Position numbers and translations under genes: made by a program. Positions 24,004-34,228 of a stretch of 50,701 bases of DNA are shown one piece after another. The DNA is from Lachnospiraceae bacterium (GTDB lineage: Bacteria > Bacillota > Clostridia > Lachnospirales > Lachnospiraceae): NCBI GenBank assembly GCA_017480565.1, contig JAFVAL010000060.1, positions 1 through 50,701 of the forward strand, read 5' to 3'. Under the pieces are notes generated by a model. The model did no database searches. It was not told where the DNA came from and saw only the letters and a list, made by a program, of their open reading frames with translations. Positions within the stretch are counted from its first letter, which is position 1; every line of letters starts with the position of its first letter.

Positions 24004-26565
24004 ATGGATGAACATATTTTTGATAAAGTACAGGAAGTCGATCTGAAAAAGACGATGGAGACATCGTATATTGATTATGCGATGTCGGTCATTGCGGCGC
24101 GTGCCCTTCCGGATGTGCGGGATGGCTTAAAGCCGGTACAGAGACGAATCCTTTATGCGATGACAGAACTTGGAAACACCCCCGATAAGCCGCATCGTAA
24201 GTGCGCGCGTATCGTCGGTGATACCATGGGTAAATATCACCCCCACGGAGACTCTTCGATCTACGGTGCGTTGGTAAACATGGCGCAGGATTGGTCGATG
24301 AGATATACGCTGGTGGACGGCCACGGCAACTTTGGTTCCGTCGATGGTGACGGTGCCGCGGCAATGCGTTATACCGAGGCGCGTCTGTCCAAGATCGCGA
24401 TGGAGATGCTCTCGGACATCAACAAAGACACGGTTGATTTCGTGCCGAACTTTGATGAGACCGAGAAAGAGCCGACCGTGCTGCCTTCCCGTTTTCCGAA
24501 CCTTTTGGTCAACGGTACCACCGGTATCGCGGTTGGTATGGCAACCAACATTCCGCCGCACAATCTGCGTGAGGTCATTGGTGGTGTGGTGCGCATCATC
24601 GACAACCGTGTCAATGAAAACAGAGAAACCGAGATCGACGAGATTATGACGATCATCAAGGGACCGGATTTCCCGACGGGAGCACAGATCCTTGGTACGA
24701 TGGGCATCGAAGAAGCTTACCGGACCGGCCGGGGCAAGATCCGCGTGCGTGCGGTCACGGAGATTGAGCCGATGCAAAACGGCAAGCACCGCATCGTGGT
24801 CACAGAACTTCCTTATCTGGTCAATAAAGCGCGTCTGATCGAGAAGATCGCAGACCTTGTTAAGGAAAAGAGAGTTGATGGCATCACGGAGCTCAGAGAC
24901 GAATCCAGCCGTGCCGGCATGCGCATTTGCATCGAACTGCGTAAGGACGTCAATCCGAACGTAATGTTAAATACCCTCTTTAAGCATACACAGCTGCAGG
25001 ATACGTTCGGTGTGATTATGCTGGCGCTCGTCGACAACCAACCGAAGGTGTTAAATATCGTCCAGATGCTGAAGTATTACTTAAAGCATCAGGAAGAAGT
25101 GGTCGCGAGAAGAACCCGTTATGATCTGAACAAAGCGGAAGAGCGCGCACACATTTTACAAGGCTTACTGATTGCGCTGGATAACATTGATGAGGTAATC
25201 CAGATTGTAAGAAGCAGCCGTACGACAGCGGACGCGAAGGCGAGACTGATGGAGCGCTTTGGGCTGACGGATCCGCAGGCACAGGCGATCGTGGATATGC
25301 GTCTGCGTGCGCTCACCGGACTGGAGCGGGAGAAGCTTGAGCAGGAATATGCGGAGCTGATGGAGAGAATCGCGTATTACAAAGAGATTCTTGCCGATGA
25401 AAATAAGCTGCTTGGCGTCGTGCGCGATGAGCTGATGGCGATCTCTGAAAAGTACGGAGATGACCGCCGCACGTCGATCGGCAGAGATGAATATGATATC
25501 ACGAACGAAGATCTGATCCCGAAGGAAAATGTCATCATCGCGATGACCAAGCTTGGCTATATCAAGCGTATGTCCGTGGACAATTTCCGCGCACAAAATC
25601 GCGGCGGCAAGGGCATCCGTGGCATGCAGACCTTAGAAGATGACTACACGACGGATCTTTTGATGCCGACGTCACATCATTTCCTGATGTTCTTTACGAA
25701 CCATGGGCGCGTATACCGGCTGAAGGCTTACGAGATTCCGGAAGCATCCAGAACGTCCCGCGGCACCGCGATTGTAAACCTCTTGCAGCTTTTGCCGGAT
25801 GAGAAGATCACCGCGATCATTCCGATCCGGGAGTACCGCGAAGGGGATTACCTGATGATGGCCACCAAGGACGGCACCGTGAAGAAGTCACCGCTCACCG
25901 ATTTTGCGAATATCAGAAAGAGCGGTATCATCGCGATTGATTTGCGGGAAGACGACGAACTCATCGAAGTCAAGCCGACCAATGGCGAGCAGGAAGTGCT
26001 TCTTGTGACCAAGAATGGCCAGTGTATTCGTTTCAAGGAATCCGATGTCAGAAAGACCGGACGCAGTTCGATGGGCGTGCGAGGCATGACACTAACCGGC
26101 GATGACGAAGTTGTTGCGATGCAGCTGGCAAGCCAGGGTGAGTATTTGCTGATGATCACGGAAAATGGCCGCGGCAAGCGCACCCCGATCACAGAGTTCC
26201 ACACGCAGGGACGTTCCGGCAAGGGCGTGATCTGCTACAAACTGACCGACAAGACCGGAAAGCTGATCGGCGCGAAGGCCGTGAAGGATGGACAGGACAT
26301 TCTCTTGATCACCAACCAGGGCATCATCATCCGCACGATGTGCGACCAGATCTCCGTGCAGGGAAGAAGCGCCTCCGGCGTGAAAGTCTTTAACGTAGGC
26401 GATGACGAAGACGTCTTCGTCGCAAGCATCGCGAGGGTCCGGGATGACATCCCGAGAGAAGATTTCGAAACGGTCAGCGAAGAGACGGAAGAAGCAGAAG
26501 AGATCATAGAAGAAGAGGGAATTCTCATAGGAGAAGCTGAAAGCGACGAGACAACGGAAGAATAA
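24004..26565 (+). CDS. gyrA: DNA gyrase subunit A
   Basis: 853 residues. The winged-helix breakage-reunion domain has the catalytic Tyr in [13 protein letters not shown] (Tyr123). The C-terminal pinwheel includes the GyrA box ([10 protein letters not shown], from about residue 534) and ends in an acidic tail rich in Glu. In the quinolone-resistance-determining region the sequence is [15 protein letters not shown]: Ser at the E. coli Ser83 position, Gly at the Asp87 position. The gene is the last of the rightward origin operon and is followed by a hairpin. Confidence 0.98.
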
Positions 26566-26572
26566 ATAACCG

Positions 26573-26616
26573 AGACCCTGTGAGTGATTAGTGCTCTTCA
26601 GGGTCTTGGATTTCTT
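26573..26616 (+). terminator. gyrA terminator
   Basis: AGACCCTG (26573-26580) pairs with CAGGGTCT (26599-26606), then TTGGATTTCTT. Its arm layout (about 27 nt between arms) resembles the inverted-repeat units that follow. Confidence 0.65.
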
Positions 26617-26630
26617 ACATGGTTGATGTG

Positions 26631-26870
26631 TGGACTCAATATTCTCTATCTCAGATGTGCAGAGTCTCGAAAAATGTACTTATGGAAAGATGTGGAGACT
26701 CACAACAGCATAACATTTAGATACTGAGTCTAAAGTAAGTCGATCAATGGAATCCAGTTAGACTCGCAATAGCCAATTTTTAAGATACTGAGTCAGGTAT
26801 CAATCTGATAAAAGGATAAACTCAGACTCACGAAATGTATTTTCTGCAATAGTGAGTCTCAAGAAATATA
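26631..26870. repeat. 64-bp periodic array of GACTC...GAGTC inverted repeats
   Basis: GACTC occurs at 26633, 26697, 26761 and 26825, exactly 64 bp apart. GAGTC occurs at 26662, 26726, 26790 and 26854, again exactly 64 bp apart and always 29 bp after its GACTC. Flanking bases are partly conserved (often AGACTCAC on the left and GATACTGAGTC on the right), giving 5-8 bp stems with 18-24 nt loops; the sequence between the arms is not conserved. The array fills the 309-nt gene-free gap between gyrA and the MFS gene, its last arm ending 16 nt before that gene's ATG. Confidence 0.85.
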
Positions 26871-26874
26871 AAAC

Positions 26875-28128
26875 ATGGGAAGTAATCATACCACACAACC
26901 TCTCTGGACCAGAGACTTTACGATTATCACCCTTGGCTCGGTGGTTTCGATGTTCGGCAATGCGATGTCCGGCTTTGCCTTGAGTCTTCTGGTGCTTGAC
27001 TATACGAACTCCAACTTCCAGTATGCACTGGTGATTGCGCTTTTTACGGTGCCAAACCTGGTCATGCCGATCTTTTCCGGCGCACTCTTAGACCGGTTTT
27101 CGCGCAAGAAGATGATCTATGGCCTGGACTTTCTTTCTGCAGCACTTTACTGTGCGATGGCACTCATTTTCGCCTCAGGAAGATTTTATTACTGGATCTT
27201 GTTAATCTATGCGCTTACGCTCGGTTCGATCCAGAGCATTTACATGGTCGCCTACCAGAGCTTTTACCCTCTCTTGATCTCAGAGGGAAATTTCACCAAA
27301 GCCTACTCGATCTCAGGCGTACTTGAGACACTGACGGTCTTCATGGTACCGATTTCAGCGTTTTTGTATAACAAAATCGGCATCTCTCCGCTGCTTGCGA
27401 TCAATGCGGTCTGCTTTTTCATTGCAGCAGTGATGGAGACACAGATCCGGGCGGAAGAAAAGTATATTGAAGCACAAAAGGGAACCCGCACGGAGAATAA
27501 GACGAGCCGGCAAATGCTCACGGATATCAAGGAAGGCTTCCGCTATATGGCGAGCGAAACCGGTTTGCTTGCGATCGGTGTATATTTTATGTTTTCATCC
27601 TTCGCTGGCGGTGCGTCTTCGGTCATCGTACTTCCTTGGTTTAAAGGCACCTTTGAAAATGGGGAATATATCTACATGACCGTCTTTGGCTTTTCTGTCC
27701 TGGGACGTGCGATCGGTGGCATGATTCATTATCGCAAGAAACTGCCGACCGAGAAAAAGTTCTCGATTGCGATGTTTGTCTATCTTGCGATCTGCTTCTT
27801 AGAGGGTGGATGTCTCTTTATGCCACTCCATGTGATGCGCGTGATGATGTTTTGCTCCGGCATTTTAAGCGTGACGAGCTACACGATCCGCATCGCAGCC
27901 ACCCAGCACTATGTGCCAGATGAGAAAAAAGGACGGTTTAACGGTGCCTTTAACATGATTAACACCGCCGGGAGTCTTTCCGGTGAACTGATCGCAGGAG
28001 CGCTCGCAAGCTTATTTTCTCCGAGGGTCGTTCTCGCAGGATTTATGTTAGTCAATCTCCTTGCAGGGATCTTCATTCTTGGAGGAAAGAAAAAAGAGGT
28101 TTCTGCTATTTACAATGTGGAGACGTAA
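26875..28128 (+). CDS. MFS transporter (MFS_3 / macrolide-efflux-like)
   Basis: 417 residues with about 12 membrane helices. The segment ALLDRFSRKKMIYGLDFLSA matches the loop 2-3 motif of MFS. Overall layout resembles MFS_3 drug or siderophore exporters such as MefA-like proteins. Substrate is not predictable. There is no good ribosome site before ATG 26875; the upstream sequence is the 64-bp periodic array, which may control its transcription or translation. It ends 7 nt before the convergent AraC gene. Confidence 0.8.
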   Translation: MGSNHTTQPLWTRDFTIITLGSVVSMFGNAMSGFALSLLVLDYTNSNFQYALVIALFTVPNLVMPIFSGALLDRFSRKKMIYGLDFLSAALYCAMALIFASGRFYYWILLIYALTLGSIQSIYMVAYQSFYPLLISEGNFTKAYSISGVLETLTVFMVPISAFLYNKIGISPLLAINAVCFFIAAVMETQIRAEEKYIEAQKGTRTENKTSRQMLTDIKEGFRYMASETGLLAIGVYFMFSSFAGGASSVIVLPWFKGTFENGEYIYMTVFGFSVLGRAIGGMIHYRKKLPTEKKFSIAMFVYLAICFLEGGCLFMPLHVMRVMMFCSGILSVTSYTIRIAATQHYVPDEKKGRFNGAFNMINTAGSLSGELIAGALASLFSPRVVLAGFMLVNLLAGIFILGGKKKEVSAIYNVET

Positions 28129-33929: not shown

Positions 33930-33989
33930 GAAAGACAAAAGAAAAACAGTCCTGTGCTTGCACAAGGGACTGTTTTTCTTTTGTCTTTC
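33930..33989. terminator. 60-bp near-perfect palindrome (bidirectional terminator)
   Basis: A 23-bp perfect stem (33930-33952 with 33967-33989) encloses a TGTGC/GCACA inner hairpin. The arms contain T-runs on both strands (CTGTTTTTCTTTTG). It lies 23 nt after tRNA-Ser and most likely terminates it. Confidence 0.85.
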
Positions 33990-33996
33990 AGGGCGA

Positions 33997-34228
33997 GCAA
34001 CGCGAGCCGGACGGACATGCGTAGCATGAACGGCGGCCTCGGCTTGCATGAAACCTGTCTTTTTCGTTTGTTCTCTTATGGCGAACAACGCGAGTCGGAC
34101 GTTTTGCGAAGCAAAACGGCGACCTCACGTTGTTCGGGCTCTCTTATCGCGGAGAGTGCCAGACAAAGTTAAAGCGTACAAAGCAACGCGACCCGGACGG
34201 ACATGCGTAGCATGAACGGCGGCCTCGG
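33997..34228. repeat. Three REP-like stem-loop repeats
   Basis: Copy 1 (33997-34042) and copy 3 (34183-34228) are nearly identical 46-mers with an inner CATGC-GTA-GCATG hairpin. Copy 2 (34082-34136) has the same outer frame (CAACGCGAG.CGGACG ... CGGCG.CCTC) but a different inner hairpin, CGTTTTGC-GAA-GCAAAACG, and a longer perfect outer stem CGAACAACG/CGTTGTTCG. No ORF here is credible. Confidence 0.75.

Follow-up and report, generated by a model that had tools for sequence, protein, structure and literature searches.

Regularly spaced hairpins between gyrA and an MFS transporter gene of a Lachnospiraceae bacterium: a candidate REP/BIME-like family of extragenic tandem repeats

The stretch of DNA analysed here, called the window, comprises 50,701 nucleotides of a Lachnospiraceae bacterium and carries a gyrase cluster in which gyrA is preceded by genes that we take to be dnaN, recF, and gyrB, all named from sequence alone. 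Between gyrA and the gene that follows it, an intergenic region is filled by an array of five hairpin units (Table 1).

Table 1. The gyrA-MFS intergenic region, its hairpin units, and its neighbours (positions in the window)
Feature	Position	Strand	Basis or remark
gyrA, upstream neighbour	24004..26565	+	ORF list; name recognised from sequence
gyrA-MFS intergenic region, occupied by all five units	26566..26874	.	folding against shuffles
Unit 0: hairpin GACCC/GGGTC, loop 22	26574..26605	+	-20.0 kcal/mol with 3 nt flanks
Unit 1: hairpin GACTC/GAGTC, loop 24	26633..26666	+	model R1, 28.6 bits
Unit 2: hairpin GACTC/GAGTC, loop 24	26697..26730	+	model R1, 32.1 bits
Unit 3: hairpin GACTC/GAGTC, loop 24, weak (-4.9 kcal/mol)	26761..26794	+	model R1, 39.9 bits
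Unit 4: hairpin GACTC/GAGTC, loop 24; stem of 8 bp including flanks	26825..26858	+	model R1, 36.5 bits
MFS transporter, downstream neighbour	26875..28128	+	PF07690, 113.4 bits; PF05977, 64.8 bits

In units 1-4, GACTC starts at 26633, 26697, 26761, and 26825, and GAGTC at 26662, 26726, 26790, and 26854, with a period of 64 bp and an arm offset of 29 bp in all four, just as an earlier, sequence-only reading of this DNA had described. Unit 0 (GACCC at 26574, GGGTC at 26601) stands 59 bp ahead of unit 1. It had been regarded as a gyrA terminator with a similar arm layout; the layout is indeed alike, but 26574-26605 is another unit of the array, and a consensus scan of 26400-27000 found no intrinsic terminator (a G+C-rich stem with a T run after it). 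On the same result, the proposal of an expanded terminator array is not supported for this region. At the other end, the final GAGTC ends at 26858, 16 nt upstream of the MFS ATG (26875), and no Shine-Dalgarno-like stretch is visible by eye between the two, both in agreement with the earlier description. Identity among units 1-4 is 1.00 in the arms, 0.42 in the loop, and 0.35 outside, and the fixed geometry with free loops, which had been noticed before, is therefore real and points to a constraint on structure and spacing. Because its loops and flanks have diverged, the array is absent from the Tandem Repeats Finder output for the window. With two mismatches allowed, the single pattern occurs 20 times in the window against 22.6 expected, which is chance level; therefore, the signal resides in the exact arms plus the period. 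As RNA of the + strand, the region 26566-26874 has a folding z score of -3.87, none of 100 shuffles folding as stably, and as DNA of the - strand its z score is -1.46, with 9 of 100 shuffles as good. Rfam gives two matches in the window, both tRNA.

The gyrA-MFS array has many counterparts in its own genome (2.78 Mb in 76 contigs, assembly 98.76% complete). GACTC-N24-GAGTC is found 43 times there and the control, the pattern read backwards, once, a difference that chance does not explain. All but about five of the 43 exact matches belong to tandem arrays at separate loci, and four look like coding singletons outside arrays (window position 1791 and three more). A three-arm pattern occurs at 29 forward and 23 reverse places. 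Model R1, for which 48 units with paired arms were used, yielded 118 matches at E up to 10 and added arrays with TACTC/GAGTA and GACCC/GGGTC arms. Model R2, built from 84 units, yielded 136 at E up to 1 and added further arrays, many of them with a 63-bp period; both totals include weak matches and, for some units, matches on both strands. With the limit set at E 0.012, 105 units fall into 33 clusters on 23 contigs, 24 of the clusters holding at least two units, and some one-unit clusters read as full arrays on inspection. The number of arrays is about 33, or 35 if the TTGATC/GATCAA and GCATCC/GGATGC series belong, after contig-end clusters were merged, two single units dropped, and four arrays found by reading added. 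Copy numbers are lower bounds because arrays break the assembly. The sequence-only reading, which had spoken of tandem hairpins and of a repeat-derived element, was right in kind.

A unit consists of a hairpin of 31-35 bases and a linker of about 30 bases. When spacings were chained by a finder that accepts intervals of 58-68 bp only, 85 of 89 were 62-64 bp (62 bp in 7, 63 in 22, and 64 in 56), the others being 59, 60, 65, and 65 bp. A fixed-motif finder returned 27 series of at least three units in 206,725 bases of match-selected loci of this genome, including a CATCC/GGATG series, and none in the reversed sequence or in five shuffles. An arm-agnostic finder, for which reversed sequence is no control since inverted repeats survive reversal, returned eight series in 450,701 bases (the array-holding contigs and the window) and none in four shuffles. 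In four diverged arrays, that of gyrA-MFS among them, the arms are 0.93-1.00 identical and the loops 0.29-0.42, which is near-random. Arms vary between arrays and are mostly homogeneous inside an array. Units within arrays align in one direction, that is, head to tail; the best-scoring strand is uniform within arrays except for one L117 unit under R1, which agrees under R2, and it is weakly defined in some arrays (L057 and L053), whose units are near-palindromic. With regard to a CRISPR array, which would have near-identical repeats, unrelated spacers, and cas genes close by, a comparison of units revealed no invariant or almost invariant column beyond the arms. At 10 array loci searched against Rfam (E up to 0.5), only tRNAs reach the gathering score, and the literature surveyed holds no description of this hairpin array family. 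A second, shorter dispersed repeat, unlike the hairpin arrays, is present at 33953-34225 of the window, L047 3834-3920, and L051 2886-2952, in pieces that are 79-86% identical.

Apart from small overlaps with the ends of neighbouring ORFs (L117, L118, L126, and L127), the arrays are intergenic, and short ORFs across them are taken as spurious. By hand count, 17 of 32 arrays lie between co-directional genes, six between convergent and three between divergent ones, and six are at a contig end or have unclear ORFs beside them. The notion of a constant position upstream of a gene, which was consistent with the absence of convergent sites among the first 11 loci, was refuted by the six convergent cases among the 26 resolved. 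The neighbours include tRNAs, a RelB-type antitoxin, a Transposase_31 gene, an AAA ATPase, a YkuD protein, and what are presumably secY, adk, pth, aroK, and rpsR, judged by their sequences. A multi-site operator local to the MFS gene, as had been proposed, does not survive as the general account, given that the same type of array adjoins unrelated genes at about 33 loci in several intergenic contexts.

Alternatively, the arrays may be selected RNA elements, transcribed as rows of UTR hairpins that govern the decay of the mRNA, its termination, or how the following gene is translated. Such a role would fit the folding of the gyrA-MFS region as RNA beyond its shuffles, an array that sits inside the secY-adk gene pair, and the last arm ending 16 nt before the next start codon at L051 as it does at gyrA-MFS. 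It is, however, unlikely: at the 17 co-directional sites, 5 arrays have the direction of the genes and 12 the opposite one, 3 of the 26 resolved arrays lie between divergent genes (both by hand count), the window region has no terminator-like site, and wobble pairs reveal no significant strand preference (G.T at 13 locus-positions, A.C at 8). Folding energy gives no clear answer as to the strand, the reverse complement being more stable in 67 of 108 units.

Two whole arrays, L139 and L141, are 85.5% identical over 345 columns and have unmatched flanks, which speaks for the copying of whole arrays. Arrays sit at several contig breaks of the assembly. The end of contig C8 and the start of C58 consist of the same 86 array bases, and the end of C31 and the start of C54 lie in near-identical units that share 61 bases exactly. 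At L121 2441-3901 and L122 1-259 (contigs C8 and C58), one 270-aa ORF is flanked in a cassette-like manner by two similar, same-orientation TACTC/GAGTA arrays, the second of which seems to contain the junction of the two contigs; this ORF has no Pfam match at E 0.001. Likewise, the 140 bases with which C5 ends (L123 2913-3052) recur unchanged at the beginning of C37 (L127 1-140), and these contigs probably adjoin. The Transposase_31 (YhgA/Rpn-like) gene (L117 1366-2613) lies beside the L117 array, and DNA beside the L053 array (L053 1-448) is 80% identical over 290 bp to part of that gene.

Whether pairing is kept is judged with the least bias from the 48 units that were picked on arm pattern alone. 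In these, the outer pair just beyond the arms (columns 15/50) is standard in 43 units as against 24.0 expected (T-A 18, A-T 16, G-T 9, and other 5), and when counted by locus (11 loci) the proportion is 0.884 against 0.482, with 5 of 2000 permutations as high. At columns 16/49, a G-A mismatch in four loci is opposed by a compensated T-A in two loci on adjacent contigs. No significant covariation was detected for the inner pair 21/44 (235 of 2000 permutations as high, by locus). Overall, pairing seems to be kept, with the outer pair switching in a compensating way between loci. In the wider sets, arm covariation is biased, as R1, R2, and the unit picker reward paired arms: among 84 units, 114 cells are changed on both sides and still paired compared with 47.6 with shuffled partners, a slide of 1-3 columns leaves no more than 44.3% of cells paired as against 81.6% in register, and two of five measures are not above shuffles (383 of 500 shuffles reach the value for both-side-change pairs and 280 of 500 that for pair types), and with one unit for each of 24 loci 128.0 of 144 cells are Watson-Crick compared with 110.2 shuffled. 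The differing of arms in pairs between arrays, as a sign of pairing, is partly biased by the way in which arrays were found. For two-unit stretches, RNAalifold predicts the same two stems, with 14 pairs, 8 of which have a compensatory change. Many hairpins are weak by folding energy. Pairing between loop and linker (GACAGCC against GGCTGTC) was rejected, the score being 3.99 within and 4.27 across arrays, with 59 of 60 permutations as high.

The arm types are tied together to varying degrees. R3, a sequence-only model, recovers GACTC and GACTC/GAGTA arrays; its matches to those with TACTC/GAGTA arms are weak (best E 0.044), and below E 0.8 it has none to the GACCC/GGGTC type. The kinship of the GACCC arrays, therefore, rests on the 63-bp period, the linker word, hairpin size, and the mixed window array. 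The linker word CAAG/CTTG, common to GACCC-type arrays, is present in 24 of the 44 linkers, as against 6.9 on average and 15 at most after shuffling. The 111 picked units include 48 with GACTC/GAGTC arms, 14 with GACCC/GGGTC, 11 with mismatched GACTC/GAGTA, and none with GACTC/GGGTC or GACCC/GAGTC; mixed-arm units do occur by eye, in L135/L136 and as the first units of L139 and L141.

These results bear on two further explanations. In one, the array would be a cooperative operator with GAGTC half-sites on one helix face, through which a putative dimeric DNA-binding protein controls the neighbours. The identical arms and constant 29/35-bp alternation at gyrA-MFS are as expected from this, as is a period of 64 bp, about six turns and near an integral number of helical turns. 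We nevertheless hold it to be very improbable: the half-sites are not independent, as their outer base pair covaries, the arms switch in pairs if the GACCC arrays belong (mostly concordantly, with a selection bias and with mixed units seen by eye), and the neighbours are unrelated genes in several orientations.

In the other, the repeats would be mutationally maintained without any function, as tandem quasi-palindromes that slippage homogenises and whose arms stay paired through template switching at replication, that is, by arm copying. According to PMC8794818, template switching is able to generate hairpins and to preserve them, with changes that look compensatory. It could also give the compensating pair at the stem foot, and the arms are array-specific and mostly homogeneous within arrays. 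On the other hand, it is the same arm letters that are kept in saturated arrays, along with loop length and period, which argues against arm copying alone, a process that would keep pairing but not letters. In addition, a mismatch stands in every unit of L118 and L119. Mutational upkeep by itself is thus quite unlikely.

Searches with the unit models in 249 other genomes of the family, that of the same genus among them, revealed no repeat family of this kind. The three-arm pattern is confined to the genome itself among 397 genomes of the family, and its 14 matches in viral contigs are approximately the chance expectation. The four matches of a four-arm pattern in genome contigs were discarded, as one is apparently coding and three lie in other repeats. 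R1 at E 0.01 has matches in 2 of 21 genomes, namely, its own and G028, where the match (E 9.9e-4) is a lone place with no unit series and was dismissed. With strict filters, R2 matched only its own genome among 250 genomes of the family (E 1e-4, 21 candidates scored per genome) and among 391 of the class (E 1e-5, 13 candidates per genome), two samples that overlap. A more sensitive R2 run on five relatives gave six lone weak matches in four of the five at E up to 1, the best having E 0.067 and one, in G001, E 0.19. R1 and R2 would miss families with quite different stems. The arm-agnostic scan revealed no array in 400,000 bases of G006 or in 108,279 unmasked bases of G001; one match in 142,566 bases of loci from other relatives was set aside, having A+T-rich arms and no series and lying inside a stretch matched by the MFS gene. 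A distant BLAST search of plasmids with the gyrA-MFS array found no match.

G001, the sole other genome of the genus in the sample (83% complete), has the gyrA-MFS site without an array. The secY-adk gap, which measures 469 nt and holds five units in the array-bearing genome, is 104 nt in G001 and 107, 88, and 67 nt in three others; it was readable at 5 of 10 adk loci, the script finding no secY upstream at the other five. With two array-free syntenic sites in G001, the arrays were either gained in the lineage of the array-bearing genome or lost in G001. The sequence-only reading had held that absence of the spacing from relatives, together with many random matches elsewhere in the genome, would speak against it; the spacing was indeed not found in relatives, but elsewhere in the genome the matches form arrays of the same period and are not random.

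Our preferred explanation, to which we assign a probability of roughly 0.55, is that the gyrA-MFS site belongs to a lineage-specific, REP/BIME-like family of extragenic, hairpin-forming tandem repeats whose structure is recognised by a protein. Arrays would have been copied to new intergenic places, as L139 and L141 suggest, would have grown by slippage or unequal recombination, and would then have diverged while stem and spacing were kept. The single-stranded form, either RNA or DNA at the replication fork, may fold into a row of stem-loops, and recognition of this row by some host or transposon protein would be the reason why stem and spacing are kept. The retention of arm letters where loops are saturated speaks for recognition, and the compensating pair at the stem foot for the folded form. 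At gyrA, where two transcription units adjoin, we infer that the function is that of a stem-loop row lying between them, which would form in any read-through transcript.

A more far-reaching version, which we regard as doubtful, is that the arrays represent a new class of element in which fold and 62-64-bp pitch are inherited while the stems are rewritten in each array (GACTC, GACCC, TACTC, and perhaps TTGATC and GCATCC), with a putative mover other than a RAYT spreading the arrays and a putative host factor reading their structure. REP-type repeats are described mostly in Proteobacteria in PMC3733652, and according to PMC2817692 RAYTs and their REPs appear to coevolve. A family that keeps hairpin and pitch without a RAYT, in a Clostridia-like genome of gut type, would separate two customary explanations, transposase-recognised mobile DNA and host-kept structure. 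Moreover, about 33 arrays of differing divergence in one genome amount to natural replicates, in which selection can be set against template switching in the upkeep of hairpins.

Several known repeat families resemble the arrays in part. REP/BIME sequences are described as extragenic, palindromic, 20-40 bp long, high in copy number, often clustered or regularly spaced, with some families species-specific, and as located mostly between co-directional and convergent genes (PMC3733652, PMC2817692). The arrays match this as extragenic, high-copy palindromes (105 units in 33 clusters, with a hairpin core of 31-35 bases). Unlike REP/BIME, their units run head to tail instead of alternating in orientation, their arms differ between arrays, and the tag is rare: in the 12 nt next to the foot, on both sides and both strands, 3 of 108 units carry GTAG and 1 of 108 carries CGTC. 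The tops of 21-25 bases over a five-pair stem also differ from the loops of 2-20 listed for GTAG REPs in Table 1 of PMC3733652. A search of the genome for RAYTs (PF01797) gave one match only, a 53-aa frame at 22.3 bits, below the cut-off of 23; this frame (L085 1474-1600, contig C48) looks like a truncated remnant of an IS200-type transposase. With no tag, no RAYT, and head-to-tail units, the family resembles REP yet cannot be filed as REP. BOX elements of Streptococcus pneumoniae are intergenic modular repeats whose inner module is tandemly multiplied with a period of 45 bp, whereas the arrays show no fixed end modules by eye and have a period of 62-64 bp. In a REPIN, two inverted REPs form a pair that a RAYT moves; the arrays differ in being direct tandem units and in that no RAYT was found. 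They share with REPINs the dispersal of short palindromic units within one genome (PMC3116915). The Efa repeats of Enterococcus faecalis and the Bor repeats of Bordetella are likewise intergenic stem-loops that recur within a single species or genus, in one case in Firmicutes, but by their description in PMC1590033, on which this comparison is based, they are families of repeated sequence near gene 3' ends. Taken together, the arrays are read as a REP-like variant with a layout of its own, for which REP/BIME palindromes are the closest known kind.
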